Shown here piece after piece: positions 32,436 through 55,300 of a stretch of DNA of 64,000 nucleotides. The translations under genes were made by a program, and so were the position numbers. Origin of the DNA: Nitrosomonas sp. (lineage in GTDB: Bacteria > Pseudomonadota > Gammaproteobacteria > Burkholderiales > Nitrosomonadaceae); assembly GCA_024281995.1 (NCBI GenBank), contig JAMWZW010000010.1, positions 1-64,000 on the forward strand. The letters run 5' to 3'. Under the pieces are notes generated by a model. It worked only from the letters and a program-made list of their open reading frames with translations. It was not told the DNA's origin and ran no database searches. Position 1 is the first letter of the stretch. Each line of letters opens with the position of its first letter.

Positions 32436-33659
32436 ATGCAACAATATAAAAATGAATTTTTGTCTGATATACAAAATCAGCGCAAATCCGCTATAGTTAC
32501 CACCAATTATCTTTTTTATATCAAGTCAGTTATGTTTCATCATCGCGATCACCTGGAAGATTTGAATAAACAACTCCCTTTAAAGAACAAGCTTGTGAGC
32601 GCACACAGTTCCATACAAGAAAAATTTCCTTTCATTTCACGTATTGCTATTACACTTTATGATCCTGAAACTAAAATACTCAAAACTTACCTCGATAGTA
32701 GCGGAGATGACAAACCGCTAGCCCACTATCAAGTACCTTTAGACGATGCACCATCGTTAAAGGAAATTCTCGAAAAAGGCCTGCCCCGGGTTGTCAATAA
32801 CTTAGTTACTTTTGAAAAAGGCAATCATGAACATACGCAAAGAATCGGACGGCAGGGTTATGCAGCAAGCTATACCATGCCCATATTTCATTCGGGTGAT
32901 TTTATTGGGTTTTTATTTTTCAATTCTTACCAAACCGACGTTTTTAAAGAAAATGTATTGAACATACTCGATATTTTTGGCCACTTGATTTCACTAATGA
33001 TCATTAATGAGCTTTCAACTTTTAAAATGATGAATGCTGCGCTTAAAACAACTAGCAATATTACTCACCTCCGCGACCCTGAAACAGGCAGCCATCTTGA
33101 TCGGATGTCTCGTTACAGTCGTTTAATTGCCGCATCACTTGCAAACAAATATCAACTGGATGATGTGTATATCGAGCATATTTTTATGTTTTCGCCACTT
33201 CATGATATAGGAAAAATTTCGATACCCGATAACATCTTATTAAAACCAGGGCCTCTGAACGAGTCAGAAAGATTAGTTATGAATACTCATGCACGTAAAG
33301 GAAGGGAAATAATTGATGATCTAATTACCAATTTCGGGCTGGATCGTATTACTGGTATTGATATTTTGAAAAATATTGCAGAATTTCATCATGAAGCTGT
33401 CAATGGTAGCGGCTATCCGTATGCGAAAATCAGTCACGAGATTCCTTTGGAAGCCCGCATTGTTGCTGTTGCCGACGTATTTGATGCATTGACTTCACGC
33501 CGCCCTTATAAGGATGCTTGGGACAATGACAAAGCATTTAATACACTTAAACAACTTGCTGGTGAAAAGTTAGACAGTGATTGTGTCAATGCGTTAATTA
33601 AAAATCAGCATCAGGTCGAATTGATTCAACAGCAATTCAAAGAAAGTAACTACAGCTAA
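32436..33659 (+). CDS. GAF-HD-GYP domain protein (paralogue of 3138-4286)
   Basis: This protein of up to 407 residues has the same layout as the gene at 3138-4286: GAF-like N-terminal half and C-terminal HD-GYP. The HD motif HDIGK is intact, but the GYP signature reads HHEAVNGSGYP, with Asn in place of the usual Asp. Alignment with the paralogue suggests translation may begin at the ATG at 32532 (MFHHRDHLEDL). Neither start has a good Shine-Dalgarno. Activity as a c-di-GMP phosphodiesterase is expected but the substitution makes it less certain. It stands alone between the SRP RNA and a nuclease gene. Confidence 0.87.
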   Translation: MQQYKNEFLSDIQNQRKSAIVTTNYLFYIKSVMFHHRDHLEDLNKQLPLKNKLVSAHSSIQEKFPFISRIAITLYDPETKILKTYLDSSGDDKPLAHYQVPLDDAPSLKEILEKGLPRVVNNLVTFEKGNHEHTQRIGRQGYAASYTMPIFHSGDFIGFLFFNSYQTDVFKENVLNILDIFGHLISLMIINELSTFKMMNAALKTTSNITHLRDPETGSHLDRMSRYSRLIAASLANKYQLDDVYIEHIFMFSPLHDIGKISIPDNILLKPGPLNESERLVMNTHARKGREIIDDLITNFGLDRITGIDILKNIAEFHHEAVNGSGYPYAKISHEIPLEARIVAVADVFDALTSRRPYKDAWDNDKAFNTLKQLAGEKLDSDCVNALIKNQHQVELIQQQFKESNYS

Positions 33660-36035: not shown

Positions 36036-37562
36036 ATGGACACTGAAGCAAACCCAAGTGTTGATTCAGACAAAAATGTCTTGATCAAAGACAGAATGAT
36101 TAACATGATTAGTAATAATCCAGATCTGCCAACACTAGGCAGTTCTTTATCAAACATTGTGCAGCTGTCCTCATCAGAAGATCAATCAACAAATGAACTG
36201 ACTCATTTGATTTTAGCTGATGTAGCATTAACACAAAAAATTATACGGTTAGCTAATTCCGTGACATTTCGGGGAACTTCGAATCAAGTTGTAACAAATA
36301 TTTCCAGAGCGATTCAGTTGCTGGGACTCGATAGCATCAAAGCCTGTGCTTTAGGAATGATTCTGATTGACAAAATACCAGCAAAGCACACGCAATATGT
36401 CAAAAAAGAATTAATGCTCTCATTAACAGCCAGCATGATTGGCCGCCAATTGGCAAAGCGCAGCAGTTTTCCCAATGCTGAGGAAGTTGCTATTGCGGCA
36501 TTATTCAGAAACATGGGGCGCTTGCTGCTAGCTGCATTTGATCACAATCTCTATAAAGAAACCATGGACCTTGTCAAACAAGGCACACATTCTCAAACAC
36601 AAGCATCACTGAAAGTAATTGGTTGCAGTTTTGATACCCTTACAGAAATTGCCATGCAAAAATGGCTAATTCCTGAATTTATTATCAATGCTATGAAATT
36701 ATTATCACCCAAACCATTAACCCCACCCAAAAATCGTCAAGAATGGATGCGGCAAGTTACAGAATTCAGTGAGTCTTCCGCACAGTTGATATGTGATCCA
36801 GAAGATTCGAAAGAAAGATCTCTTGATCAAACATTAATAAAACGCTTTGGCGCATCACTCAACCTTGATCAGGAAAAACTTAATGAACTCATTGTGCAAG
36901 CAACCGAGCAGGTAAGTGTATTCAGTAATTACGCTCATTTGCAATTGCCAACTGTTAATAATACAACAACTAAAGATCCAAACTCATTGAATGATAACAA
37001 CTCAGTGAATAGCTTAGCAAATGGGACAGCCTATCATTCTAGTGGAAAGCCATACAATGCAATGGATCAACTATTGGCTGGCATGTCAAAAGTTGCTACA
37101 TTCACGGCAACAGAAAGTTATCGAGCGAACGAATTACTTATGTTGGTCTTAAAAATCTTGCACCAAAGCTTAGGATTTAGTTTTGCCACTATCTGCTTAA
37201 AAGATATTAAAACCCATCAATACCGTGCGCGTCTGTCTTTAGGTAAAGATCATACAAATCTGCAACAACACTTCATTTTCTCAGAAACCTCATCAGATTT
37301 ATTTAGCTTAGCCATTAAGAAAAATACTGATTTGTCTATATCTGACACGAGCGATATGAAAGTAAGAAACATGTTACCGGATTGGCATTTAAGATTATTA
37401 CCAAATACCCAAAGTTTCGTTATTCTTCCACTGGTTATCAGCGGAAAGCCTATTGGCGTCTACTATTTTGACCGCCAGCATACCGCTCCCGAGGGAATTT
37501 CCTCGGATGAAATGAAGATCATAAAAATACTGAAGAATCATGTGCTTGATGCATTAAGCTAG
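36036..37562 (+). CDS. HDOD and GAF domain signalling protein
   Basis: This is a 508-residue cytoplasmic protein. The N-terminal HDOD domain (about 22-225) begins NNPDLPTLGSSLSNIVQL and contains IRLANSVTF and ISRAIQLLGLDSIKACALG. A polar low-complexity linker (about 300-345, Asn/Ser/Thr-rich) leads to a GAF domain (about 355-505; FVILPLVISGKPIGVYYFDR). HDOD proteins act in signalling, often with two-component or c-di-GMP systems, without known catalysis. It is convergent with apbE, with only 15 bp between stops. It is the third GAF-containing regulator in the window. Confidence 0.85.
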   Translation: MDTEANPSVDSDKNVLIKDRMINMISNNPDLPTLGSSLSNIVQLSSSEDQSTNELTHLILADVALTQKIIRLANSVTFRGTSNQVVTNISRAIQLLGLDSIKACALGMILIDKIPAKHTQYVKKELMLSLTASMIGRQLAKRSSFPNAEEVAIAALFRNMGRLLLAAFDHNLYKETMDLVKQGTHSQTQASLKVIGCSFDTLTEIAMQKWLIPEFIINAMKLLSPKPLTPPKNRQEWMRQVTEFSESSAQLICDPEDSKERSLDQTLIKRFGASLNLDQEKLNELIVQATEQVSVFSNYAHLQLPTVNNTTTKDPNSLNDNNSVNSLANGTAYHSSGKPYNAMDQLLAGMSKVATFTATESYRANELLMLVLKILHQSLGFSFATICLKDIKTHQYRARLSLGKDHTNLQQHFIFSETSSDLFSLAIKKNTDLSISDTSDMKVRNMLPDWHLRLLPNTQSFVILPLVISGKPIGVYYFDRQHTAPEGISSDEMKIIKILKNHVLDALS

Positions 37563-37577
37563 ATAAATGGCCAATCT

Positions 37578-38495
37578 CTATACAAGTAATTCAGTTTCAA
37601 GGGAGCCGCCCACTTCACCATGCACATTGACCCATAAATGTGGCAAACCTAATTCTTTTAGCCAATTAGTTCCTTGCTCTTCCTTGAGCATCCCAATTGT
37701 GGATGCGCTACCAGCAACGACGCAAAACTCACCAATGACACTCACAGCAGCCATGTAATTAACAGGCCAACCGGTTTTTGGGTTAAGGACATGTCCATAG
37801 CGCACACCATTCAGGATAATACAACGTTCATAGTCTCCACTGCTTGCAACTGCACCAGAATATAGCAACAGCGTTGTTAATAAGCCATCTGCCTGACGCG
37901 GATGCTTAATGGCTATTTTCCAGGGGCTGCCATCATTATGAGGGCCAATGATTTTAACATCCCCCCCAAGATTCACTATACCGTGACGAATTCCAGCGTT
38001 CCAGCCAAGCGTTGCTGCACGATCAACCGCATATTCTTTAACTATCCCGCCAAAATCAATTTCCATACCGGGGACCCTAAAAAACAAACGAGGCCGCTGC
38101 CAGTTAACTTTATGCCAACCAATCATTTCTAAAAGTGGTTGAATGGTACTTTCATCAGGTACTTTCCCTGACTTAAAATCCCATCCACGGCGCAAAATCC
38201 CCGAAGTAATATCAAACAGCCCATCGCTTTGTTGATAACATGTTGCCGCATAATCCAGCAATCCCGCCGTTTCATCATCAACATCAATGGCTCCACCCAG
38301 GGTAGCTTTATAATTAATTGTCGATAAAAAACTGTCTGTACGGTAACGAGAGTATTTTGCCTCTAATCGATAAATATCATTCCTGATAATTTTTGCTGCA
38401 TGCTTAGCTCTCCTCTGATTTTCAGCATAAAATTGGAGCGAGCAAGGTGATCCCATCGCCTTAAAATGAAAATGAAAATATTGTAAGCGAGCCAT
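37578..38495 (-). CDS. FAD:protein FMN transferase (ApbE family)
   Basis: This 305-residue protein belongs to the ApbE family, which attaches FMN from FAD to Thr or Ser in a Dxx(S/T)GAT motif. Family blocks seen are FKAMGSPCSLQFY, LEAKYSRYRTDSFLSTIN, the FAD-binding DFGGIVKEYAVDRA and NLGGDVKIIG, and GYVLNPKTGWPV-like GHVLNPKTGWPV with VIGEFCVVAGSASTIGML near the C-terminus. It has no signal peptide or lipobox, unlike most periplasmic ApbE proteins. It lies 100 bp downstream of the DUF3570 gene, whose product contains a matching DTWSGAT motif, so that protein is its likely substrate. Confidence 0.88.
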   Translation of the reverse strand: MARLQYFHFHFKAMGSPCSLQFYAENQRRAKHAAKIIRNDIYRLEAKYSRYRTDSFLSTINYKATLGGAIDVDDETAGLLDYAATCYQQSDGLFDITSGILRRGWDFKSGKVPDESTIQPLLEMIGWHKVNWQRPRLFFRVPGMEIDFGGIVKEYAVDRAATLGWNAGIRHGIVNLGGDVKIIGPHNDGSPWKIAIKHPRQADGLLTTLLLYSGAVASSGDYERCIILNGVRYGHVLNPKTGWPVNYMAAVSVIGEFCVVAGSASTIGMLKEEQGTNWLKELGLPHLWVNVHGEVGGSLETELLV

Positions 38496-38595
38496 CTCAA
38501 TATACGAAAAAATAAAATTCTCGAGATTTTGTTTACTCTGAACAAATCGCGCTCATCTTGCATCATACTTAGAATAACTACAATCAAGGTGCCGG

Positions 38596-41304
38596 CTAGA
38601 AATGATAGCTCCAAATCGCTGATAATGCACCCTGGCGATCCAGTTGAAAGCCGTTGAAATCACTCCTCACCGGCTGTATCCATTCAAACCCCAAACGATT
38701 GCCTGCAAACCGTCCGTGCGGAACAATAGCATTTATCCCTACTCCGATATCCCAGAATTCTCCCCCATAATTGCTTGGAAAATCCATTGGTCCGATGCGC
38801 CCATTAAATGCATCAAAATCGCGATGAATCCCGCCTTGCCAAGTATAAGCTCCTCGAACTGTAGTAGTCAGCCAATGCGAGAGATCATATCCACCCCAAG
38901 TAGTCGCCTGAATCATATCTCCCAAGCGATAACCGGATTTATTTTTCTCTTCTAGGCGCTTAGTACCACTGAATTGCGCACCCCACGACCAGCGGCTTTT
39001 GTCGCCAACATACGTAAGACTCGGCATAAAATCCCAGGTACCGCTACCCAGTTGCATCCCAAAATGAATCAATCCACCGTCATTCTTGGCAATACGGCGC
39101 AACTCGATATCTACTTTCCCAGTCGGTGCACTGACACCGAGATTCACGTGAACCCGATGTCCTGGAATATCAATCAGCTTAATCAACGATGAAAAATAGG
39201 TATCTCCAATAGCACCGGTTTCATGCCCCGCCACGCCAGTATGCTCGTGCACACCGGGTGCGGCAGGTGGCGCTCCGGGTAGTCTGCGCAAATTCATATC
39301 CATGTCCATGAATGTAGGCATTAGCATGACGTTGAGCCATTTAGTCGGCGCATACATGAGATCAATCATATGCATACGCATATCCATGAATGTAGGTACA
39401 AAACGGCAGGGTTCACCTTGGCAACCTTGATCGATGATTGTTTGATCATTCACCTGATGTGAGCCATGCTTCATATTGCCACCGGTCCAGTTGTACATAA
39501 AGCGGTATCCGGCCATAAAATCGCCCGGTTTATCGAGCATGTGGCCAAACATGATGCCTGCGGGAGGAATTTTATGGTGGTGATGCGAGGAAGCATGTGC
39601 ATGTGACTCAAAAGATGTTTTTGAACCACCCATCGGTAACGAAGCGACCGGCTCCATATCAAATTTGATGGCCGCATTAGCTACATAATAATCAAAATCC
39701 GCAAAACTGGTACTTCCACCACCTACCTGCATAGAACTGGCGCGCGTATAGTATTCAAAACCGGTTTCCAATGCCACGCCTTTGCCGAGCATCTTGCTCA
39801 ATATCACGCCACCGCTTAGTGCTCCAAAGCCTGCCAAGCGATGATCACTAGAAAAATTATCGGGTAATTTTGCAGCATCGAACAGCACATTTTTAGGAAC
39901 AACATTAAACCCATCAACGGGATTACCACTCTGATCAAACAAATTAAATTGATCATTGCCAAAATACTGCACCGAGGGGTTATTTGAATCCAGCCAGACT
40001 CTCCGCCCTAAACTGTCGACTTCCTGTGTGGTGTATCTTTGTTGAGAAAATAAATAAGGCCGAAAAAAACTGGCAGCATCTTGCGAGTAATAACGAATCC
40101 TAGGTGTCAATGTCCAGCCATTCCCTAATGGTTGCACCCAACTTGCATCAAAAGTATGCGCATTCACACCCCAATCATCCACTGATAAGCGATAGCCTAA
40201 ATGCAGTGCCGCGTTCAATGGGCTGATATATTGGATATATTTGGTATTGAGTGCTACTTGATTACGAATGTTGGGACGTTGTTCGATCAATGCACGAACA
40301 TCCCCGGGAATCGATGTTAATTGCCGATTGTTCAAATCTCCAGGGTCAATGAAGATGACCGACATCGCTTTGTAGGGATTTTCCAGGAAACCGCTACTGT
40401 GCGTATAACCAACATTGGCATCCAGCAATGTATTTTTCGTTAACACTTGCGCAACACCTACATTGACGATCCAATCCTGCCGCTCACCACGTAAGATTTC
40501 CGAACTATCACGCCGTACAATTTGCGGCAAATAGGCAATTTTAGTGATATACGGCGATGAATCATGATCGAGGATAGCGCCAATATCACTACTGGTATAA
40601 CCACCGCCGAACTTAACTGTAGTGAGTTTCTGATTAAAATCCAAACGGCCACCAATGGAGCCAAAACTCGATTTATAATCCCGTTCCCGTGAAAACCCGC
40701 CACTCACGCTTAAAGCAGCTTCGTTCCATTCATAACTCAAGCCAAAATTGGCTTGACGCCGGGTTTCCGGGGATGCTGATGACATCACCAATACAGATCG
40801 GGGATCAACAGCGCTCGTTAATTCTTTAGTAAGGGGGTCACGCCCGATAGGATTTAAACTGCGATCTAAAAGTACTGTGCTATTTAAAATAGGCGAAGCG
40901 CCCACCACCACCCCGCCATCGGTATAAGGACGATTACCGCCAGTGGTAGCTAATGGCGTGATGGTTACTGGTGTTGCGCCTGACCAGGTATCCTGGGTAT
41001 AACCGAAAGAAAATTTAGCGCGATCGGTTAATGAAAAGATGCCACTACCATGCAAAACATCGGCAGTAATCGGTTTTAAGTTATTGGGAGCGCCAAATAA
41101 ATTGCGCTCGCCTTCCTGGTAGCGGCTATATTGAAAATTGATCCGGTCTTTACCGGTTGCAGGAGCAGATGACATCAATAGTCCGGGTAATACTAGGGCA
41201 GCAGAAGTCAATGCATGCAGCGTTTTCTTTGACTTTATTAATGATGCATCTGAAATATTCAGCCGGTCGTCACACAGACACTGGGGGGCATTATCATGTT
41301 GCAA
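38596..41304 (-). CDS. DUF3570 outer-membrane beta-barrel with C-terminal second domain
   Basis: This is a 902-residue protein starting with TTG at 41304 (GAAGGTAG upstream). A signal peptide (about 26-50, ending SSAPATG) follows a long polar leader. The N-terminal part (about 55-560) matches DUF3570, rich in alternating aromatic/polar beta-strand patterns. It contains DTWSGATP (residues 105-112), a flavinylation-type motif. A His-rich linker (HAHASSHHHHK, near 590) and Met/His-rich segments (TFMDMRMHMIDLMY, HEHTGVAGHETG) precede a second barrel-like region ending WSYHF, an outer-membrane C-terminal signature. It is inferred to be a flavinylated, metal-interacting outer-membrane protein. It lies between DUF4266 and apbE. 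Confidence 0.8.
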   Translation of the reverse strand: MQHDNAPQCLCDDRLNISDASLIKSKKTLHALTSAALVLPGLLMSSAPATGKDRINFQYSRYQEGERNLFGAPNNLKPITADVLHGSGIFSLTDRAKFSFGYTQDTWSGATPVTITPLATTGGNRPYTDGGVVVGASPILNSTVLLDRSLNPIGRDPLTKELTSAVDPRSVLVMSSASPETRRQANFGLSYEWNEAALSVSGGFSRERDYKSSFGSIGGRLDFNQKLTTVKFGGGYTSSDIGAILDHDSSPYITKIAYLPQIVRRDSSEILRGERQDWIVNVGVAQVLTKNTLLDANVGYTHSSGFLENPYKAMSVIFIDPGDLNNRQLTSIPGDVRALIEQRPNIRNQVALNTKYIQYISPLNAALHLGYRLSVDDWGVNAHTFDASWVQPLGNGWTLTPRIRYYSQDAASFFRPYLFSQQRYTTQEVDSLGRRVWLDSNNPSVQYFGNDQFNLFDQSGNPVDGFNVVPKNVLFDAAKLPDNFSSDHRLAGFGALSGGVILSKMLGKGVALETGFEYYTRASSMQVGGGSTSFADFDYYVANAAIKFDMEPVASLPMGGSKTSFESHAHASSHHHHKIPPAGIMFGHMLDKPGDFMAGYRFMYNWTGGNMKHGSHQVNDQTIIDQGCQGEPCRFVPTFMDMRMHMIDLMYAPTKWLNVMLMPTFMDMDMNLRRLPGAPPAAPGVHEHTGVAGHETGAIGDTYFSSLIKLIDIPGHRVHVNLGVSAPTGKVDIELRRIAKNDGGLIHFGMQLGSGTWDFMPSLTYVGDKSRWSWGAQFSGTKRLEEKNKSGYRLGDMIQATTWGGYDLSHWLTTTVRGAYTWQGGIHRDFDAFNGRIGPMDFPSNYGGEFWDIGVGINAIVPHGRFAGNRLGFEWIQPVRSDFNGFQLDRQGALSAIWSYHF

Positions 41305-41341
41305 ATTTTTCTACCTTCAACAACTTCGAACAGGTGTTAAT

Positions 41342-41590
41342 TTAATAACAGCCGCATCCTCCTCCCCCCGAAGAAGATTTATGACTCGGTGCCGCTTCAC
41401 GGCTGCTGTAATTGTGGGATTGTATTTCACTTTGCAGTGGATGTGGATCCAATTCCATCTGAGGTTTGGCAAGATTCCCGCGCTCCCAGGGTGCAACATT
41501 GACACAGCCAACCAAGCCAATGATTACTATCCATAAGACGGCAATCCATATCGGACGATCAATTTTGATCAGAAAAGATTTAAAAAACAC
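41342..41590 (-). CDS. DUF4266 lipoprotein with C-terminal GGGGCGC
   Basis: This is an 82-residue lipoprotein: a membrane-spanning signal (about 14-28) with lipobox LVGC (Cys29), then VAPWERGNLAKPQMELDPHP, the DUF4266 core. The tail SSSGGGGCGCY is glycine-rich with two cysteines. The family is uncharacterised but is habitually encoded next to DUF3570 and ApbE. The cysteines could bind metal or be handled by the thioredoxin encoded immediately upstream (17-bp gap). The gene precedes DUF3570 by 37 bp on the same strand. Confidence 0.82.
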   Translation of the reverse strand: MFFKSFLIKIDRPIWIAVLWIVIIGLVGCVNVAPWERGNLAKPQMELDPHPLQSEIQSHNYSSREAAPSHKSSSGGGGCGCY

Positions 41591-41607
41591 TATTAATATA
41601 CCAGCAG

Positions 41608-42114
41608 TTATGGATTTTCCATGACCAACTGCGTAATTAGAGCTCGCAACTTTTCTGTTTCACCAGGGCGAAAACCTTGGTGAACATGACGAATCATACC
41701 CTTTCGATCGATCACGTAGGAAGTCGGCATCGCCATTACTTCCAAGCCTTTGGCGCATTGTTTACTGATATCGGCAACAATAGAAAAATCAGCGGGATGT
41801 TTTGTAAGAAATTCCTGCGCATCAGCGACTTTTTCATCCAGATTAATGCCGACCACATGCAAACCTTTATCTTTTAATTCGCGATCAAGCTCGTTTAAAA
41901 ATGGGAAAGATTGCACGCAAGGCGGACACCAAGATGCCCAAAAATCCATATATACCACTTTGCCTTTCAATTCTTGCAGATCATACGCTGGTTTCCCGTC
42001 CAGAGTAGTTAAATGGCAGGCAGAAGATGCTTGATCGAGGTGCTCTGCAACCGAGGTTTGTGCACACACCATTAATAATACACTGGTAAATATAGATAAT
42101 TTCATTTTTCTCAT
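41608..42114 (-). CDS. TlpA-like periplasmic thioredoxin
   Basis: This is a 168-residue secreted thioredoxin-fold protein. A signal peptide (about 1-23, ending TSVA) precedes the domain. The redox motif WASWCPPC gives Cys63 and Cys66, followed by the cis-proline in MAMPTSYVIDRKG. It belongs to the TlpA/ResA reductase group, which reduces disulfides for heme or copper-site assembly in the periplasm. The start is ATG at 42114 with GAGG about 10 nt upstream; ATG at 42105 is an alternative. It is 17 bp upstream of the DUF4266 gene and in the same probable operon. Confidence 0.88.
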   Translation of the reverse strand: MRKMKLSIFTSVLLMVCAQTSVAEHLDQASSACHLTTLDGKPAYDLQELKGKVVYMDFWASWCPPCVQSFPFLNELDRELKDKGLHVVGINLDEKVADAQEFLTKHPADFSIVADISKQCAKGLEVMAMPTSYVIDRKGMIRHVHQGFRPGETEKLRALITQLVMENP

Positions 42115-42167
42115 TATCGCTTACCTCATTAATCTTAGAACAATATTACGTCAATCGTGTAGACTCA

Positions 42168-42641
42168 TCACTCAAACTGATACACCCTAATATCTGTGTC
42201 GGTATGCGTAACTCCATCCGCTGCCATGCAATGGTAAGAAACTATGAAAGATCTCGCACCCGCACCGGTTTTGTTTACCAGCAATAGGTAAGTGCCATTT
42301 CCACCAGGAACCCTGACTTCAGGACTAAAATTTGCATCGCCTGAAATGGTATCAGTCGTGCTGTTTGCACGATTAATATTATTGCCGATGTGTATGATTT
42401 GTAAATTCACCAATAAATTGTCTTGCGGTGGTGATGTATCCTTGATACTCGCCACCAAGTGATCGGTAGGAACACTTCCGGAATTAGTGCAAGAAACCTG
42501 CGCAAAACCAGTAAAACTGGCAACATTACCATTAGGATCCATAGTCGCGCCTGCATCATGAGCATGACTTGCACTCGCGGTGGTTAATACAAGTATCAGA
42601 AAAAAAACGGAGAGCATTTTATCAAAAAATTGTGATGACAT
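42168..42641 (-). CDS. Secreted protein of unknown function with predicted N-terminal His
   Basis: This is a 157-residue exported protein. The signal peptide (about 1-27) ends with the cleavage motif SHA, leaving mature HDAGATMDPNGN with histidine first. The remainder has the look of a beta-sandwich (FTGFAQVSC, LLVNLQIIHIG, GTYLLLVNKTGAGARSFIVSYHC). Two cysteines could form a disulfide. No characterised homologue is recognised. It precedes the TlpA gene by 53 bp on the same strand and is probably the first gene of the operon leading to apbE. A terminator at 42818 separates it from the next upstream gene. Confidence 0.7.
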   Translation of the reverse strand: MSSQFFDKMLSVFFLILVLTTASASHAHDAGATMDPNGNVASFTGFAQVSCTNSGSVPTDHLVASIKDTSPPQDNLLVNLQIIHIGNNINRANSTTDTISGDANFSPEVRVPGGNGTYLLLVNKTGAGARSFIVSYHCMAADGVTHTDTDIRVYQFE

Positions 42642-42817
42642 AATTGTTTATCCCTTATTTTAAGTTTAAAAACCTTTTAATCAATCTATTGAGACAAAAA
42701 TTTCTGTATTTCAATAAGCAAAAAAGGCAGCTATGAAGATCATAAGTGCCTCAAAATTTATCCAAAAGATTGGCCTTATCTTTTTATTCATTATATGCAT
42801 ACCTCAAGATGCTTTCT

Positions 42818-42862
42818 AAAAAAACCTCGCTCCGAGAAGGAAGGAGGGAGAGCGAGGGTTTC
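42818..42862 (-). terminator. Rho-independent terminator for the gene at 42892-43641
   Basis: Read on the minus strand, AAACCCTCGCTC pairs with GAGCGAGGTTT (one bulged base) around a CT-rich loop, directly followed by TTTTTTT. This is a strong intrinsic terminator 30 bp past the stop. It isolates the upstream gene from the operon starting at 42641. Confidence 0.85.
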
Positions 42863-42891
42863 ATCACAACAGCAACCGGTATTACAATTAA

Positions 42892-43641
42892 TTACTGTGG
42901 CCAGATTTGTGTGCCATCAAGCTTAATAGGCATGTCACGATTAATTTGTGCAGCCGATGGCTTGACTTCAACGACAACACCTTTACCGCCACAGCTCTCT
43001 GGCAACGGATTGGTAGTCGTATTACGAACTACTGTCAAAGTTGCCGGACCATCATCGGTTGTACCGACACGATCATAAGGTGTACCTAAATTATTATGTG
43101 TCCAGAAATTGACCGTATTTTCATTAAAACCAGAAGTTGAAGTAATTTCGCAAATATCTGCGATAGATACGTAGAATTTTACACTCGCAACACAAGAATC
43201 AGATTTTAACGTTACCGGTCCAACCCTGAATGAAATATAACCATTCATATCATGAGGCAATGAATCGCCACCGCCAGCCCAAAAACCTAGCACATTCCCA
43301 TCCGCATCAGTTTTTGATTGTTGATGGGTAAAAACTTCCTTGCTATAGTTTTTCTTGATCAAATTGCCCCAATTATCAACAAAATCGGCCAAAGTACCGG
43401 TGTGAGGCTGACCATCAACTGTAACGGTTGAATCCACTCCATCTGGAAATACCACACTCGTACCAATAACGTTGCTTTCCCCACAACCATGACCAACAAT
43501 CACATTGTTACTGGCTCTTATGTTGTCAGCAATTTCAGGTACTTCCAAACGAGTATGTGCTAATGCACTTACACCACTGACGCATATAGCTATAGTGGCT
43601 ATTGAAATCGTAAAAAATTTTAGTCCGTGTTTTGTATACAT
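42892..43641 (-). CDS. Secreted YcnI/DUF1775-like protein (paralogue 1)
   Basis: This is a 249-residue exported protein with a signal peptide (about 1-28, SALA) leaving mature HTRLEVPEIADN. Features recalling the DUF1775/YcnI copper-binding family are the N-terminal His followed by LEVPE and the motif NVIVGHGCGESNVIGTSVVF. Four cysteines (GHGC, SDSC, ADIC, PESC) are conserved in its paralogue at 44205 and probably form two disulfides. Copper binding by a His-brace-like N-terminus is inference. It is divergent from the paralogue, with two palindromic operators in the shared upstream region. Confidence 0.75.
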   Translation of the reverse strand: MYTKHGLKFFTISIATIAICVSGVSALAHTRLEVPEIADNIRASNNVIVGHGCGESNVIGTSVVFPDGVDSTVTVDGQPHTGTLADFVDNWGNLIKKNYSKEVFTHQQSKTDADGNVLGFWAGGGDSLPHDMNGYISFRVGPVTLKSDSCVASVKFYVSIADICEITSTSGFNENTVNFWTHNNLGTPYDRVGTTDDGPATLTVVRNTTTNPLPESCGGKGVVVEVKPSAAQINRDMPIKLDGTQIWPQ

Positions 43642-43832
43642 CTTTATACTCTTAAATTTTTTCTAAAAATTGTTAATCGTCACAGTAAAGAACCCAATCA
43701 ATCTCATATCATGATTTGCCGATAAATTATTGCCATCAACGCATTTAAAATTACCGTAAGCAATCACTTATACGAGCGTCCACTCCACTCTTTCTGCTTT
43801 TTGATTATCTGACTCCATCATTAAAATATCAA

Positions 43833-43849
43833 TGCGACAAATTGTCGCA
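43833..43849. promoter_or_regulatory. Perfect 17-bp palindrome TGCGACAA-A-TTGTCGCA
   Basis: The arms are perfect 8-base reverse complements around one central base. It lies 184 bp upstream of the gene starting at 43641, in the divergent region with 44205. It is the best match to the consensus shared with 4508-4539, 43983 and 48401. It is inferred to be an operator for a dimeric regulator. Confidence 0.6.
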
Positions 43850-43982
43850 CCCCTCCAACTTGCAATTTCATAGATCAAGTTATGGAAATTAAGAAACCAA
43901 GGAAACGCTGAAGAAATCAACATGTAAATTATTAAAACTTCCCTATACGCAAGCATGAACTTTGCTTTCAACAAAACCCAGG

Positions 43983-43999
43983 TGCGGCATTTTGCCACA
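43983..43999. promoter_or_regulatory. 17-bp palindrome TGCGGCAT-T-TTGCCACA
   Basis: This is a second copy of the shared palindrome, 150 bp centre-to-centre from the one at 43833 and about 205 bp upstream of the gene at 44205. The arms match at six of eight positions. No sigma-54 -24/-12 element was found downstream of it. Confidence 0.5.
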
Positions 44000-44204
44000 T
44001 TGCCATATTTGGAACTTTCCATAACAATGCGTGCTTTCTAAAAAGTTAAAGTCATACAAGAGCCATTTATTTCTTTATTTGAAAACCATGGACTGAGGAG
44101 TTTATTTAGTCTATTGGCTTTGTTGTTAATCAGCTTCACACTTCACTCGATCTGTAATTACCAACTTAGAGCAGAATTATGTATAGGGAGCTAGGGAGTT
44201 AATA

Positions 44205-44960
44205 ATGCGAAAAAATAAAAGAGTACGATTTGCAATACAAACTTTTTTGGGTTTAATGGTAAGCATTGCTGTAGTCCAGAATGTCACGGCACATACAGTT
44301 TTAGAAACACCGCAAGTTACCGAACTGAAAAGGACTGCTAACAATATCGTCATTGGACACGGATGTGGAGAATCACCTGTCATTGGTACCAGTATTGTTT
44401 TTCCTGATGGAATAGACTCAAAGATTACTGCTGGCGCAGATCCTCATAGCGGTGCTTTGAGTGATTTCGTGACAAATTGGGGAAATCTCATACAATTACT
44501 GCAAAATCGCTCAGTGTTTACTGAGCAAGATGAAAAAACCGATAATAGTGGCAATGTGGTTGGGTTCTGGTCGGGCGGTGGACGAGGCGTCGCTGCAAAC
44601 CTTAATGCTTATATTCCCTTTACAGTAAGTGCCGCTGTTTTTGAAGCTGGCTCTTGTGCCAAAAGCGTAAGATTCGATGTCGCGATCGTTGATGTATGCC
44701 AAATAACACCAATCAGTGGATTTTCGGATGATGTGGTAAGTTTATGGACTCCAGCCGTAGGATCTAAATATGATGGCACTCCTGGTGGACATGCTTACGA
44801 TTCACCTGCATTCCTCACGATCAATCGTGATTTGGAAAATAATCCATTACCTGATACCTGCGAGGAAGGCCTCGATGTATTTGTTAGGCCATCAGCTGCT
44901 CAAATCGACCGTGACATGCCCATTATTTTTAATGGCATACAAGTATGGCCACAACCTTAA
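44205..44960 (+). CDS. Secreted YcnI/DUF1775-like protein (paralogue 2)
   Basis: This is a 251-residue exported protein closely similar to the product of 42892-43641. The signal peptide (about 1-29, VTA) is followed by mature HTVLETPQVTEL. It shares NIVIGHGCGESPVIGTSIVF, FVTNWGNLI, GFWSGGG, the four cysteines and the C-terminal SAAQIDRDMPI-VWPQ end. The start has GGGAG close upstream. It is 20 bp upstream of a PEP-CTERM gene, so the two are probably co-transcribed. Function is inferred as periplasmic or surface copper binding. Confidence 0.75.
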   Translation: MRKNKRVRFAIQTFLGLMVSIAVVQNVTAHTVLETPQVTELKRTANNIVIGHGCGESPVIGTSIVFPDGIDSKITAGADPHSGALSDFVTNWGNLIQLLQNRSVFTEQDEKTDNSGNVVGFWSGGGRGVAANLNAYIPFTVSAAVFEAGSCAKSVRFDVAIVDVCQITPISGFSDDVVSLWTPAVGSKYDGTPGGHAYDSPAFLTINRDLENNPLPDTCEEGLDVFVRPSAAQIDRDMPIIFNGIQVWPQP

Positions 44961-44980
44961 TATCTAAGGAGGAAAGTGGA

Positions 44981-45625
44981 ATGGCAAAAATTCAATCAAT
45001 TTCGCTTGCTTTCGCTGTGGCACTCGTATTTGCTTCAAAGGCTACCTTAGCGACAATTACTTATACCGATGAAGCTACTTTTAATGAAGCTCTAGGGGGA
45101 ACTTCTGCGATAATCGAAAGTTTTGAAGAACCCTCTACAGATACGAATACGACACCACTTAGTTTTCCAACTGCCGATATTGCTTGTGATGGGTCAACAT
45201 GGTGCTCAGATTTTTTTGGGACATCCCCTCTGATGCCGACGGATGGCTCGCAAGGCGTTTACTTTGCAACGCCCGATAGCATCACTTTTACATTTAGTTC
45301 CCCTATCACTGCTTTCGCAATTGATATTGGTGATTTGGGCACCCGCGGCGCCACCGACCTCAGTGTCACTTTATCAAATGGGAATTCGACCACACTTTTA
45401 ACAGAATATAGCGGAAGTAGTTATAGTCAAACCTTTGTCGGCCTGATTGACGATGCTGAATTTACGACGATTACTTTTCACGGTACAGTTGCGGACGATG
45501 GCATTTATTTTGATCGTATGCAAACAGCCGTCGTAGCGGCGCCCGTACCGGAACCGGAAGCTTCTGCAATGGTAATCACTGGATTAGCTATTTTAGGATT
45601 GTTTGCCTACCGTAGAAAACGATAA
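44981..45625 (+). CDS. PEP-CTERM sorting domain protein
   Basis: This is a 214-residue exported protein. The start is ATG at 44981 with AAGGAGG upstream; the longer frame from 44945 is rejected. A signal peptide (about 1-24, ATLA) and a Thr/Ser-rich, low-complexity body are followed by the C-terminal sorting signal. That signal is VPEPEASA, a hydrophobic helix (VITGLAILGLFA) and basic YRRKR. Such proteins are processed by exosortase and linked to exopolysaccharide. Two cysteines (ACDGSTWCSD) sit near residue 63. No exosortase gene is present in this window. It follows a DUF1775-like gene by 20 bp. Confidence 0.85.
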   Translation: MAKIQSISLAFAVALVFASKATLATITYTDEATFNEALGGTSAIIESFEEPSTDTNTTPLSFPTADIACDGSTWCSDFFGTSPLMPTDGSQGVYFATPDSITFTFSSPITAFAIDIGDLGTRGATDLSVTLSNGNSTTLLTEYSGSSYSQTFVGLIDDAEFTTITFHGTVADDGIYFDRMQTAVVAAPVPEPEASAMVITGLAILGLFAYRRKR

Positions 45626-45692
45626 ACCGCCTATAAAGCAGAATCGAGGCAAGTCGAGGAAAGGATTATTCTTTCAATACAAGCTCTTCTGA

Positions 45693-45727
45693 TACCCCGC
45701 CCTCTTGGTACGGGGTAATCCATTTTT
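45693..45727 (+). terminator. Probable terminator after the PEP-CTERM gene
   Basis: A perfect 7-bp GC-rich stem TACCCCG / CGGGGTA with an 11-nt loop is followed after 5 bases by TTTTT. It lies about 68 bp after the stop codon and would end the two-gene operon. Confidence 0.55.
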
Positions 45728-46273
45728 CAATGGTATCGTTAGAAAACTTAATTCATGCAAATAATGGCGTTGCTTACTAGAATGCATAGACGCCTCTCAT
45801 TATTAGGTCGCTACAAATTCCAGAAAGACAGAAATCCAAATATTGTCTGATGGTTACTCCCGGTTATGGAGATACAAATATCGTCAAAACAAATATTTTA
45901 TTTCACAATGGCGTGAACTTGACGATCATAGCCAATGGCAATTCATAACTCACCTAGTGCTAATTAACCCAAATTCTTGAGGAACTAATCAAAAAGTATC
46001 CATTTCCTCGAATGTTTCCCTCAAATTCCTCTCAGATTCGATAAGATAAACTTATTTTCTCCCATTTTTCATTTCGTTTTTATCTCGGAAATCCTTCGAT
46101 TGTGGTAGCAGACCTAGATGAAATGTAAGAGAAACTCCCAGAAACCTGATGAAGCAACAGGTAAGCAACAAAAGGTTACGCTGCGACATTCTATGCGCTG
46201 AGAGTTCAAAGAATTTCCGGTTATTATAATAAAGATAATGTAACTTGGATGTCAGTTAACTTTCGGAGAAAAA
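45728..46273. other. Gene-poor region upstream of 46274
   Basis: There is no ORF with convincing coding features across these 546 bp. Short open stretches (for example near 46145-46200) are interrupted by stops and could be decayed coding DNA. A TATAAT-like box occurs near 46225, about 45 bp before the next gene, without a clear -35. Confidence 0.35.
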
Positions 46274-47020
46274 ATGAGCATTCCAACAGAATTTTGGCTG
46301 CATCATTCGATTTTTTACGCTTTATTATTTCTAATTCATTACCTCAATGGCGTATTAGTCATTCATCGAAATTTTAAAGTTAACTACACACGAAAGATCA
46401 ATCACTTCGCTTTCTTCTTTCTGCCTACCTTACTGTCGTCTGTAATTGAATACAGATACAGCGCAGCAACATTTTTCATGGATATGGTGTGTGCATTTAT
46501 ATTCCTGACTTTTTTTATTGCGCCTCTACGCAATAAAATTAGGCCACTGTATGTAATGTTTTGTTCGTTTGACAGACCAGAAGATAGGCCATTAACGCTC
46601 ACTTGGCTTTATACGCAGTTTATTGCAAGCTATTTAGTGCTCATTCCATTGCTGGTCTATTTCGAAAACCATAATATGCTTCCTATGATAATGATCATTA
46701 TCATAGCCAATGGTGTGGGTGATGGCCTTGCTGAACCGGTAGGTATAAGATTTGGAAAAAGAAAATATATGACCTACGCACTTTTTACTAAAGAAAGATA
46801 TGTACGTAGCTATATCGGTAGTACCTGCGTATTTAGCACAACTTTTATCGCAATATTAATATTTCACCAACATTTCAATTCAATTCAGCTAGTTATCGCT
46901 CTTCTGACTGTACCAATTTTAATTACCTTGGCTGAAGCATTTTCTCCACACACATGGGATAGTCCGTTTATATACGCGGTAGGAGGTATTGCAATAATCG
47001 CTATTTTTAGTATCTTTTAG
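46274..47020 (+). CDS. Membrane protein resembling dolichol/phytol kinases
   Basis: This 248-residue polytopic protein has about six to seven hydrophobic helices. Motifs recall CTP-dependent polyprenol/phytol kinases and CdsA-like enzymes: RKINHFAFFFLP near residue 41, ANGVGDGLAEPVGIRFGKRKY near 145-165, RSYIGSTCVF and LAEAFSPHTWDSPF. The expected chemistry would be phosphorylation of an isoprenoid alcohol, but this is inference from partial motif match. A GGAG lies upstream of the ATG. It is a single gene whose stop codon lies inside a 19-bp perfect hairpin. Confidence 0.6.
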   Translation: MSIPTEFWLHHSIFYALLFLIHYLNGVLVIHRNFKVNYTRKINHFAFFFLPTLLSSVIEYRYSAATFFMDMVCAFIFLTFFIAPLRNKIRPLYVMFCSFDRPEDRPLTLTWLYTQFIASYLVLIPLLVYFENHNMLPMIMIIIIANGVGDGLAEPVGIRFGKRKYMTYALFTKERYVRSYIGSTCVFSTTFIAILIFHQHFNSIQLVIALLTVPILITLAEAFSPHTWDSPFIYAVGGIAIIAIFSIF

Positions 47021-49325: not shown

Positions 49326-52300
49326 TTGGATCCACTGTCTTCTGAACTGTTTAATATTGAACAGTTAAAACGCCATGCCACCACACTGGCAACTCACCAT
49401 AAAATCGACTCGCGCCCCAAATCGGACAAATTGTTATCACGGCTGTTAGATAACGAAATTATCTTATTGGCTGCTTATGATCTCATTACTGAGGCTGCCA
49501 TAAAAGGTAATAAAATTATACTAGCAGAAGCATGGTTACTGGACAATTTCTATCTTATAGAACAACAAGTTGAACAAATTAGACGTTATCTGCCGCGTGA
49601 ATATAGTTACCAATTGCCGCGCTTATTGGAAGGAGTGTCAGCCGGCTTTCCTCGCGTCTATGATTTGGCATTACAATTGATTTCACATATGGATGGACGA
49701 GTTGATAAAGACAACGTCATCCACTTTATTGCAGCTTACCAAACTGTTATTCCCCTAAAGTTAGGCGAGTTATGGGCATTCCCCATTATGCTGCAACTGG
49801 CGTTGTTGGAAAATGTCCGCCGCGTAGCATTACGCATAGCACGGCGGCGTGAAGAATCGGATTTGGCGGTTATTTGGAGAGATCGCATTGCTACGACCAT
49901 CGAAAACGAACCCAAGAAACTGATTCAGTTATTAGCAGAATTTACTGAAATGGATCTACCTTTAAGTGCATCCATGGTCGAAGAATTTAGTATCCACTTC
50001 CAATCTCAGGGTCCAACCATGATGCTTTTACAAAGCTGGGTTGAGCAAAAATTATTGGATCAGGAAGTTACCGCCGCACAACTATTGGAAAGATCAACTC
50101 GAGCAGTTGCTGCCAATCAGATTTCCATTACCAATTGCATTAATAGTTTTCGCTTTATTAATGCCATGGATTGGCGGGAATACGTGGAATTACTGAGTGT
50201 TGTCGAAGAAACCCTGCGTAAAGATCCTGCTCATACTCATGAAACTCAAGATTTTGCCACTCGTGATAATTATCGCCATGCGGTCGAAGAAATAGCAAGA
50301 CGTTCCTCCCAAAGTGAGTTACAAGTAGCCCAAACAGCCATTGACCTGGCACAGTCCGCTGCAGAGCAACTTGGCATACACCACCGCAGTGCTCACGTAG
50401 GATATTATTTGATTGATCAGGGGCGACCCGCCTTGGAGCATACGGTAAATTCTCCGCCTTCATGGAAGTCGCAGCTAAACCGCATAGGGCAATCTTTCAA
50501 TCTATTCTTATATCTTGTACCCATTTTGTTAATAACGATAGGAGCTACCTACACGTTACTTGACTTATTGAATATCAATTGGAATGAAGGTTGGCATTAC
50601 TGGTTTTTTGCTCTAACAGGATTCATTGCTACATCTGCACTTGCTATTTCGTTAGTTAATTTTTTCGTTACACTATTTCATCCGCCACGAATATTGCCAC
50701 GCATGGATTTTTCCCGTGGTATTCCGGCTTATCATCGCACAATGGTCGTAGTACCGACTTTGCTAATCGATTCGCAACAATTTGATAACCTTTTAGCAGA
50801 TCTAGAGATACGCTATCTGGGTAACAAAGATCCAAATCTTTTCTTTGCATTGCTAACAGACTTTCAGGATGCGCAAGAACCTTTATTACCCGATGAAAGC
50901 GCTCTGCTCGTCTATGCAAATGAAGCAATTACCAAACTAAATGCCACTTATAGTGATGATCGTCCCTGCATATTTTATTTATTTCACCGCCCACGCAAAT
51001 GGAATCCCCATGAACAAATATGGATGGGGTATGAGCGCAAACGTGGAAAATTAGAGCAATTTAATGCACTGTTACGCGGGATCGGAAAGGACGCATTTTC
51101 AGAAATTGTTGGAAACATCGATTTTCTTGAAACCATTCGCTATGTAATTACTTTAGATACAGACACACAGCTTCCGCACGATACTGCTCAAGCACTTGTA
51201 GGTAATATGGCGCACCCGCTTAATCGGCCCGTTTATGACAGTAATCGGAAACGGGTCGTCGCAGGCTATGCAATCCTACAACCACGAGTTTCAATCAGTA
51301 TGAGCAGTGCAAATCAATCACGATTTACACAGTTATTTGCTGGAGAAACCGGTATAGATCCGTATTCACGAGAAGTATCGGACGTCTATCAGGACATTTT
51401 TGCGGAAGGTTCATTTGTTGGTAAAGGAATTTATGATGTAGATGCTTTTCGCCAAACTATAGACGGTAGATTTCCTGAAAATTTGATTTTAAGCCATGAT
51501 TTGCTTGAGGGAGGATACGCGCGCTCGGCTTTAGTCACTGATGTTAACCTTATTGAAGAACATCCGGCTAGTTACACCCAAGAAAGTAGCAGGCGCCATC
51601 GCTGGATACGCGGCGATTGGCAGCTTGTGAATTGGTTATTACCTTCTGTACCCCTTCCCGTTGATATTAATGTTGATGTTGACGTTGAAAAAATAAGTCC
51701 GAAGCGACAACGTAATCCGCTCAGTGCTTTATCGATTTGGAAAATTTTCGATAATTTAAGGCGTAGCCTTGTTCCTCCTTCACTGTTAGCGTTGCTGATT
51801 GGAAGTTTGCTGTTCAGTTCATCTGCACCATGGTTTTGGATTGTTTTAATTGCTAGCATATGGTTGCTGCCTATACTCGCTCAAAGCTTGGCTGCATTTC
51901 TTCGTAAACCGCCCGGGTGTGACTGGTGGATACATACCAATCTATCCATTCAACAAGCTGCTCGTCCAATAGCGCTGGCTTTATTAACGGTGATCATGCT
52001 GCCTTACGATGCAATGATCAACTTGAATGCAATCCTGCATTCAGGAATCCGTATGCTTTATACCAAGCGAAAACTATTATTGTGGTATTTACCCTCTTAC
52101 AATTCTCGTAATGCATGCTACACCTTATCCGACTTTTTAAAGGAAATGTGGATTGGCCCTGTATTAGCAAGCACTCTCAGCGTGTTGTTATGGGATCAAT
52201 CACTCGATTTTCTTTTTTATTCACCCGTGTTGTTAGCTTGGTTCTTATCACCCTTTATTGCTTGGTGGATAAGTCAGCCACTATCCACCCAAGTTCCTCA

Positions 52301-55300
52301 TTTAAACGATGAACAACGCATGTTTTTACGAATGGCCGCACGACGTACGTGGCGCTACTTTGCGCAATTTGTTAGTGCCGAAGACAATTGGTTACCACCG
52401 GACAATTTCCAAGAGTACCCAGCAAAAGAAATTGCTTCACGCACCTCGCCGACAAATATGGGAATGTCATTGCTGGCGCATTTAAGCGCACATGATTTTG
52501 GTTACCTTTCTACCGGACAACTGCTACAGCGCATCGAAGATACCCTGACAACGATGGAAAAACTGGAGTGTTATTTAGGTCACTTTTATAATTGGTACGA
52601 CACCCGCACACTAACCCCTTTACCTCCCAAATATATTTCCTCAGTAGACAGCGGCAACCTGGTCGGCAGTCTGTTGACGTTACAAGCGGGATTGATGGAA
52701 TTAAAAGATCAACCTATCTTAGGTGTCCCGGCATTGCGGGGATTACAAGACACATTAAACGTTCTCGCAGAAATTGTTACAACCTCTTTTCCGGCTTCTG
52801 AGATTGCTAAAAAAATCAATAAGATTGCAAACGAACTTACTGAATGGCAAGAAGGTGAGGTGCAATACTCAACAGCAGAAATAGCTCGTTTTTTGAACAA
52901 ACTCCATTACGAAAGTAACGAACTAATCGCTTTATTACCAAAAGATATTGCTAGGGATCACGACTTATACAACTGGATACAAATGCTTGAGGATCAAACC
53001 AACGCGTTTCGTCATGACTTAAACGAATTGCTATTTGCTCCCAAGGCTGTTAATAAACTTTTAACCCTCGAACAATTAGCAAATGACAATCCATCTGATA
53101 TGGATCCTGCATTGTTAGCAAAAATCCACAAAAAAGCGGAAGAAAGAATAAACCGTATTGATGGTCTGATTGAGCGTTGTCGTAAGCTAGCCATTATGGA
53201 TTTTGATTTTCTCTATGATACATCGCGTGATTTATTAGCTATTGGATATGACGTTGGCGAAAGGAGGCATGACCAATCCTATTATGACTTACTGGCATCA
53301 GAAGCGCGTTTGGCAAGCTTTTTATTGATTGCACAAAGAAAAATACCACAAAAACACTGGTTTACATTAGGACGCTTACTGACAAGCCATGGCAGCGGAA
53401 TTAGTCTGATTTCATGGAGTGGCTCGATGTTTGAGTACCTTATGCCTTGCCTAATTATGCCCAATTATCCCGACACTTTATTGGGACAAACATGCAAAGC
53501 TGCAGTATCACGTCAAATTGAATACGGTCGCCAACGCGCCGTGCCTTGGGGAATTTCCGAATCTTGTTATAACCTCACCGATAAACACCATATTTATCAA
53601 TATAGAGCGTTTGGTGTACCCGGCTTAGGGTTCAAGCGCGGGTTAAGTGATGATTTAGTTATCGCACCCTACGCCAGTGCACTTGCACTGATGATCATGC
53701 CACAAGAAGCTTGTCATAACTTACAGAAAATGGCTGCCAGTGGTTTCCTAGGTGCGTATGGTTTTTATGAAGCGATTGACTATACGCGAACACGGGTACC
53801 TCGTGGCAAGACACATGCTGTTGTACGCAATTTTATGGCCCACCATCAAGGCATGAGTTTACTGGCATTTGAATATGTTTTACTGGACCAGCCAATGCAA
53901 CGTCGCTTTATGTCAGATCCGCAAATTCAAGCAGCAGAATTATTTTTGCACGAGCGTATTCCGCGCCAAAGCATTACATTGCATCCTCACGCAGCCGAGG
54001 TCAGTGCCGCAGCGCGTTCTACCATGCCTGATACAAGTTCGCTGCTGCGTATATTTACTGATCCCAATACGCCAATCCCAGAAGTACACCTGCTTTCCAA
54101 TGGTCAGTATCATGTCATGGCTACTCATGCAGGTGGTGGTTATAGTCGTTGGCAAAACATTGCGATTACTCGCTGGCGTGAAGATGTAACCGCGGACAAC
54201 TGGGGCACCTTTATTTATCTGCGGGATAGTGATTCAGGTGAATATTGGTCTTCTGCTTATCAGCCGACGCTTCGCGAGGCCGATTATTACGAGGCGATTT
54301 TCGTACAAGCACGTGCTGAATACCGTCGACGAGATCACTCCATTGAGACGCATACTGAAATTACCGTCTCCCCTGAACATAACGTAGAAATTCGTCGAAT
54401 AACCATCACCAACCAATCTTCCTATACGCGATATATCGAGGTAACAAGCTATGCGGAAGTAGTGCTGACACCATTAAACTCTGATTTGGCACATCGCGCT
54501 TTTAGCAATTTATTCGTACAAACTGAAATCATTTCAGAAAAACAAGCCATCCTCTGTACTCGCCGGCCGCGCATGCCAGGGGAACAAGTTCCGTGGATGT
54601 TCCACCTATTAACTGCCCCCAGTGAATCAGCCGATGAACCCACTTATGAAACTGATCGCGCTCAATTCATTGGGCGAGGAAGAACCCCTGCTAACCCCAT
54701 TGTGCTGGAGAAAAATCTTGGCAATTCGGTATTATCAAACTCCGCTGGCTCAATACTTGATCCAATCATGGCCATTCGCCGCATGGTTACTTTATTACCT
54801 AATCAATCTACAGTCATCCAGGTAATATCCGGTGTTGGAGGTACGCGTGAAGAAGCATTGATGTTGGTGGATAACTATAGTGAGCGGCACTTTATCGAGC
54901 GCGCATTTGAGATGGCATGGTTTCAGAACCAAGAAGTATTACGTCATCTCAGTGCTTCTGAAGCGGATGCACAAATTTTTGCAAGCTTTGCAAGCTCCAT
55001 TATTTATAATAGCGCCTTCCGTCGTACCTCATCCGACATTATCGCGCGTAACCAATTAGGCCAATCGGGGCTATGGCGTTTCTCGATTTCAGGCGATTTA
55101 CCGATTATCCTGGTGCGAATTGCCAATTTAAATCGCATTGATCTGGTTAAATTAGCACTGCAAGCCCATGCATATTGGCGCATAAAGGGTTTGATCGCAG
55201 ATTTAGTAATCATGAACGAGGATTTTTCAGGATACCGTGCCGTACTTCATGATTATATTGTCGGTTTAATCAATGCTAGTTCTAACGTATCAATTATCGA

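Follow-up and report, generated by a model that had tools for sequence, protein, structure and literature searches.

Within the 64,000-nucleotide stretch of DNA analysed here (the window), eight genes extend from apbE at position 37578 to the end of a PEP-CTERM gene at 45625. The genome is 2.88 Mb in size and holds AmoA, and the 249-aa gene of this locus is 92% identical to a Nitrosomonas MAG gene. A sequence-only reading had listed nine neighbouring genes, nearly all exported. The genes it named lie where it placed them, although they number eight, and signal peptides, judged by eye across the locus, were recognized in most of the proteins, ApbE having no evident one either here or in related loci. 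The features are as follows (window positions):

37578..38495, minus strand: apbE, FAD:protein FMN transferase (Pfam ApbE, 1.8e-69), no evident signal peptide by eye
38596..41304, minus strand: 902-aa protein, DUF3570 (Pfam, 3.6e-105, residues 30-540) plus a Met/His-rich C-terminal tail
40972..40992, minus strand: predicted flavinylation site DTWSGAT, residues 105-111 of the 902-aa protein (motif in the translation)
40891..40902, minus strand: degenerate second site GASP, VGASP in the window protein (motif comparison)
38599..39609, minus strand: C-terminal tail of the 902-aa protein, about 337 aa, without Pfam or NCBIfam match
39295..39387, minus strand: Met/His cluster of the tail, residues 640-670, a candidate site, presumably for Cu(I) (alignment)
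41342..41590, minus strand: DUF4266 protein (Pfam, 3.4e-20), lipobox-like start (by eye), C-terminal CGC
41608..42114, minus strand: TlpA/ResA-like thioredoxin with WCPPC (Pfam Redoxin, 3e-25)
42168..42641, minus strand: 157-aa secreted protein, predicted mature N-terminus HDAGATMD (translation), no Pfam family
42825..42837, minus strand: terminator-like stem with T-run between the 249-aa and 157-aa genes (pattern match only)
42892..43641, minus strand: 249-aa YcnI-like protein, predicted mature N-terminus His29, HGC at 51-53, Trp180 (model and profiles)
44205..44960, plus strand: 251-aa paralogue of the 249-aa protein, predicted mature N-terminus His30 (translation)
44945..45625, plus strand: PEP-CTERM protein (Pfam below cut-off; NCBIfam PEP_CTERM domain, 16 of 16 bits)

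Five of these genes, namely those for the 157-aa protein, TlpA, DUF4266, DUF3570 and ApbE, follow one another at short distances on the minus strand. Upstream of this run, on the same strand and behind the terminator-like stem, is the 249-aa gene; patterns of this stem type were found 12 times, where shuffled sequence gave 8.2 (sd 3.0). The 251-aa paralogue and the PEP-CTERM gene face the opposite direction to the rest of the locus.

The core of this locus, i.e. apbE, DUF3570, DUF4266 and a thioredoxin-like gene, is already known, and the tail fusion, the YcnI-like proteins and their recurrence are what is new here. Clusters with these four components were described by Méheust et al. (2021, eLife; PMC8238504), who left their function open and reported that a Chlorobium DUF3570 protein is flavinylated by its ApbE. 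In the portion of that paper drawn on here, DUF3570 carries two [S/T]GA[S/T] flavinylation motifs, the thioredoxin-like family counted is PF13899, 316 clusters are counted without DsbD (which makes a DsbD neighbour optional), and the word copper appears nowhere in the main text. Across the literature searched, as far as the retrieved portions extend, DUF3570 and DUF4266 are named only in that paper. The window shares with the published clusters ApbE, DUF3570 with SGAT, a thioredoxin-like gene and DUF4266 with a CxC tail, which was found in 52 of 52 members and includes the CGC ending pointed out earlier. Unlike them, as they are described there, it has DUF3570 fused to a Met/His-rich tail, and adds 157-aa and ~250-aa His proteins. 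That DUF3570, DUF4266 and ApbE are habitual neighbours, as the sequence-only reading stated, is both published (PMC8238504) and seen here, where apbE adjoins the DUF3570 gene.

The gene order tlpA-DUF4266-DUF3570-apbE is the same in the window and in the tail-less clusters seen in this study. These comprise seven DUF3570 loci from seven other families of the class, all of which have tlpA and DUF4266 (7/7) and six of which have apbE (6/7), with neither of the His families nor the tail at any of them. DsbD was absent among the ten genes scanned around the window locus (36036 to 47017). The best Pfam matches of the TlpA-like protein are Redoxin and AhpC-TSA, with PF13899 absent from its matches, and its best NCBIfam matches are ResA-type models, below their cut-offs. 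A flavin motif had been noted in the barrel, and DTWSGAT is indeed present at residue 105. Among 132 fused ORFs that are 820 aa or longer, SGAT is canonical in 106, has A or G before GAT in 22 and was not found in 4, and the second motif reads [ST]GASP in 26, V/A/G-GASP in 76 (the window protein having VGASP) and was not found in 30. Because ApbE is without a signal peptide, by eye, in the window and related loci alike, and its likely substrate is an outer-membrane protein, FMN is probably attached to the DUF3570 protein before export. The 902-aa protein is a probable outer-membrane barrel; a reading of its fold was set aside, the full model being poor (mean pLDDT 57.9).

The His/Met-rich segments attributed to the barrel protein proved to lie inside its C-terminal tail, outside any Pfam model. 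Nine tail positions (8 Met, 1 His) are identical in 133/133 distinct fused ORFs, a set that includes overlapping copies of loci and whose members are not independent. Among 30 tail ORFs that lack DUF3570, these nine positions are retained in 19, 27, 23, 23, 25, 27, 6, 27 and 29, respectively, and a Cys pair of the tail is present in 131/133 fused ORFs vs 2/30 of the DUF3570-less ones. Within a sample of the class, 41 of 274 genomes carry the tail (E up to 1e-10), and only three, the window's own (G000), G293 and G368, have it fused to DUF3570. Unfused tails in this sample are mostly frames of 300-474 aa; some are fragments, and one genome that lacks DUF3570 has a frame of 808 aa. Two genomes of the methanotroph order introduced below, G485 and G491, display expansions of the fused barrel with several copies side by side (e.g. 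L337, L338), and their tail matches number 17 and 10, respectively, some being parts of one gene.

In a midpoint-rooted tree of 70 tails, all fused copies fall on one side of a branch with 100/100 support and the other copies apart. The Nitrosomonas-set tails (own support 92/38, including one record titled Pseudomonadales) are nested with two copies from the methanotroph order (100/100 and 99/86). Because the fused tails split off together and the Nitrosomonas copies nest with those of the methanotroph order, the tree points to a single fusion event followed by transfer.

The sequence-only reading had likened the His proteins to YcnI/DUF1775, a comparison that is supported for the two ~250-aa proteins (from the fold and controlled profiles) and unsupported for the 157-aa protein (profile probability 0.0). 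The model of the 249-aa protein (pLDDT 91) had, as its two best distinct structures in a Foldseek search, 3esm (E 9e-5) and YcnI (E 2.7e-4), both with probability 1.00 and both DUF1775-like, and 3esm in turn matched a YcnI-family protein at 1.4e-5. Identity to YcnI is 8%, with a TM score of 0.75 by target length and 0.42 by query length, and cohesin folds rank close behind YcnI in the same search, so that the fold match taken alone is modest. A profile comparison between the 249-aa family and 11 DUF1775 proteins gave a probability of 92.9 (E 3.7e-7), in an alignment that runs from Ala-His1 through the HGC motif to Trp180 and superimposes His1, HGC and the end Trp. This probability was 92.1 once the intermediate L340 was left out, and 78.1 or 56.9 with Nitrosomonas-set sequences alone. 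Controls gave 0.1 (reversed), 2.5 (best of 30 column shuffles) and at most 1.0 (three other cluster families), and the alignment set against L340 as one single DUF1775 protein gave 0.9. L340 itself had no PDB or plasmid match, the Pfam DUF1775 model matched none of 59 members of the 249-aa family (window protein included), and a PDB sequence search with the family returned three chance matches only. Together, the fold and the profile match support the ~250-aa proteins as remote relatives of the copper protein YcnI. Of 43 genomes tried, one had DUF1775 proper, and the window genome had none.

In the portion of the YcnI report used here, the copper site consists of the N-terminal His27, Glu50 and a nearby Trp137, with Cu(II) bound through the N-terminal His (PMC8424229). 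A His-His-Trp triad is conserved in 190/204 members of the 249-aa family: the N-terminal His is present in 199/204 (the other 5 having a gap), the spacing from His1 to HGC is 22 residues in 133/198, and Trp180, found in 194/203, aligns with the end Trp of DUF1775, a position that would make it the counterpart of YcnI Trp137. A hydrophobic stretch precedes the N-terminal His in 196/198 members, the cleavage position having been read rather than predicted by a program. The HGC His falls one residue from the place of YcnI Glu50 in the alignment, and the Glu ligand is not kept. Set against the YcnI ligands His27, Glu50 and Trp137, the conserved His-His-Trp thus predicts a two-histidine brace formed by His1 and the HGC His. 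HGC is also present in 10/10 plasmid DUF1775 copies fetched, but these were retrieved with an HGC-bearing probe and are biased, so that the motif is not independent on the DUF1775 side and comes from the sequences themselves on the 249-aa side. The family shares with YcnI of B. subtilis the fold, a predicted mature N-terminal His, the end Trp and secretion, and differs from YcnI/DUF1775 in being about 100 residues longer, in its four conserved Cys and in falling outside the Pfam model. A further 299-aa paralogue (22% identity to the 249-aa protein, predicted N-terminal His, HAC motif) lies elsewhere in the same genome (contig C1, L062:5740-6639), where its neighbours are a weak thioredoxin-like gene, a gene resembling the 157-aa type and one more member of the 249-aa family.

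The 157-aa protein of the window has no Pfam or NCBIfam name, and its family returned chance matches only in a PDB sequence search. Cys51, His137, Cys138 and His146 are present in 68/68 members and an N-terminal His in 58/68, several others having Asp. Profiles of the 157-aa and 249-aa families show only a weak match (14.5 and 24.4), covering some 35 columns in the region of the signal peptide and N-terminus. The two types are naturally fused in G368, which suggests that they act together. The PEP-CTERM protein, which scores 18.9 bits against a Pfam cut-off of 20.7, had been counted as a member of the system and is here ruled out as a core part: relatives of its gene occur at 2/39 loci and, in a wider set, at 7/79 named loci and 0/40 others, beside the 251-aa paralogue and not with the core. 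At L101, L107, L108, L155, L157, L160 and L161, PEP-CTERM and 251-aa-type genes lie side by side as a small separate pair.

Conserved co-occurrence across genomes, which the sequence-only reading had set as its own check, proved strong both within Nitrosomonas and within a methanotroph order. In the family of the window, 74 of 120 genomes have the 249-aa family and 69 have DUF3570, all in the window's genus, and three other genera of this family had no match to either. Among the matches listed, at least 62 of the 69 Nitrosomonas genomes with DUF3570 have the start of a 249-aa-family gene within 6 kb, and the nearest such gene is on the same strand for all 68 of the DUF3570 matches (of 78) that have one; three of the seven remaining genomes do show a 249-aa-family gene (L087-L089). 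Across 23 fetched Nitrosomonas loci with both barrel halves, the 249-aa family was present at 22, the 157-aa family at 22, tlpA at 22, DUF4266 at 23 and apbE at 17, most second copies being without apbE. A YcnI-like gene with no DUF3570 match was found in G082, taken to be N. europaea ATCC 25978.

The methanotroph order is the order of G368, presumably Methylococcales, with 151 genomes of which 122 have AmoA/PmoA. It includes 68 genomes with the 249-aa family, 84 with the fused tail (by frame length) and 54 with both (Fisher 7e-8), the two genes lying within 12 kb of each other in 47 of these 54; the other 30 of the 84 fused-tail genomes had no 249-aa-family match. Twenty chosen loci from this order have the 249-aa family (15), the 157-aa family (18), tlpA (15), DUF4266 (19) and apbE (13). 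Within the order, the 249-aa family shows no dependence on PmoA, which is present in 54/68 genomes with the family and 68/83 without it (p 0.73). Across the class sample, AmoA/PmoA is present in 9 of the 274 genomes, and the four genomes with the 249-aa family and the three with the fused barrel are all among these 9 (Fisher 5.5e-7 and 2.5e-5, p-values that ignore ancestry), one of the four being a weak match (6.3e-8) and one the window's own genome. Leaving out the latter, the figures are 3/3 (1.7e-5) and 2/2 (7.5e-4), again with ancestry ignored. Shared ancestry and transfer inflate these distribution statistics. The window genome also has a second AmoA-like stretch, in two frames split by a stop (G000:C21:56648-57357), some 13 kb away from a further gene of the 249-aa family. 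Genes of the module or of the family were further observed in MAG records titled Pseudomonadales bacterium (L162) and Klebsiella pneumoniae (L163), for which mislabelled or mixed bins seem likelier than transfer.

We tentatively favour, at close to even chances, a reading of this locus as a flavin-wired copper-capture module of the cell envelope or outer membrane. ApbE would attach FMN to the DUF3570 part of the barrel, TlpA and DUF4266 would give electrons to this flavin or take electrons from it, and the YcnI-like proteins would bind Cu(II) through the histidine brace, next to the Trp. Reduction by the flavin would yield Cu(I), which the Met/His-rich domain could hold or pass inward for AMO/pMMO. 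The electron-transfer step is drawn by analogy from the published flavinylation of another DUF3570 protein (PMC8238504, as far as its text was used here), and copper from remote homology, the invariant Met/His positions and the distribution.

Several results argue for copper capture: the YcnI-like fold and profile, the His-His-Trp triad and the nine invariant tail positions; the confinement to AmoA/PmoA genomes at class level, the proximity of the two genes in the methanotroph order, and the lack of His proteins at the seven tail-less clusters; and the tail tree, along with tail relatives near CusB or TonB receptors (the latter at 2/11 loci). Against it stand the absence of the barrel from N. 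europaea and from further genera of the family; the 30 fused-tail genomes without the 249-aa family, and the failure of this family to track PmoA within the methanotroph order; the iron links of published DUF3570 clusters and of a tail relative beside FeoB (both below); and the poor barrel model and the closeness of cohesin folds to YcnI. A more specific version seems doubtful to us, namely a hitherto undescribed outer-membrane copper importer in which the flavinylated barrel would reduce Cu(II) delivered by secreted His-brace proteins and Cu(I) would enter via the Met-rich domain. Such an importer would have been invented once and passed between methane- and ammonia-oxidizers, and would answer how copper is collected without methanobactin.

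Among other explanations, an electron conduit with no role in metal uptake is unlikely. The flavinylated barrel would in that case carry electrons through the outer membrane, giving them to or taking them from a partner outside, with the His proteins as copper-containing electron carriers. DUF3570 being a demonstrated ApbE substrate in clusters with thioredoxin-like and CxC proteins, in the part of the source drawn on (PMC8238504), is consistent with this, as is the Mtr complex barrel among the weak fold matches of the 902-aa protein. However, that match (rank 35) comes from a poor model whose PDB matches are mostly TonB-dependent barrels, no CXXCH haem motif occurs in the eight proteins of the locus, and the Met-rich cluster would be left unexplained.

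TlpA-like proteins aid the assembly of copper sites, and the class-level distribution lies inside AmoA/PmoA genomes, both of which would suit a role in maturation or delivery, with TlpA, DUF4266 and the YcnI-like proteins loading copper into AMO/pMMO or another exported cuproenzyme. YcnI itself was proposed to be a copper chaperone, in the portion of the report used here (PMC8424229). We nonetheless consider such a role quite improbable, as a large barrel and the 17 and 10 tail matches of two genomes are unlike a dedicated chaperone, and the set is missing from other genera of the window's family.

Acquisition of iron, or of another metal, by the same parts seems very improbable, as Met-rich sites favour Cu(I). 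The binding of Cu(II) by YcnI through its N-terminal His (PMC8424229) also speaks against it, whereas 25 DUF3570 clusters with VIT1 (PMC8238504) provide an iron link, within what was used of the two papers. An iron role is also suggested by a plasmid of Methylosinus sp. C49 (L351), where a tail relative is joined to a different barrel via a His-rich stretch, next to genes for a TonB receptor, FecR, a sigma factor, a PepSY protein and FeoB, a row that may serve this alphaproteobacterial methanotroph in reducing and taking up metal. Equally remote is copper or metal tolerance, with the barrel exporting or sequestering excess metal: two tail relatives (2/11 loci) have CusB-type efflux adaptors carrying a heavy-metal binding domain close by, but no pump gene belongs to the recurring set (loci having been scanned only for relatives of the window's genes), and flavin and thiol components are atypical of efflux systems.

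The oxidation of methane and of ammonia, two large steps in greenhouse-gas and nitrogen cycling, is governed by the supply of copper, and to our knowledge the route by which most methane and ammonia oxidizers take up copper across the outer membrane is open. We know of no flavin part in CorA or MopE, and neither was among the PDB sequence matches of the 249-aa family. Methane- and ammonia-oxidizing bacteria have a further copper protein, which we take to be PmoD. In the portions of the literature used here, that protein is reported from both groups (PMC6189053), CorA is induced by copper limitation (PMC11784148; PMC3912023), and CorA and MopE resemble the copper-capture reading of the module in being surface copper proteins of copper-monooxygenase bacteria. 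The combination of fused tail and His proteins was not found described among the literature matches listed; the module is real and conserved, with a known core and a copper-flavoured variant not found in the literature searched. It supplies specific genes and residues, together with a few predictions, on how copper may be gathered at the cell surface, and gives a published, unexplained DUF3570 flavin system a candidate substrate.

Elsewhere in the window, one open reading frame of 2872 aa occupies positions 49326-57944, and a pair of similar proteins (382 and 407 aa), by eye of a GAF plus HD-GYP signalling type, is encoded at 3138-4286 and 32436-33659.
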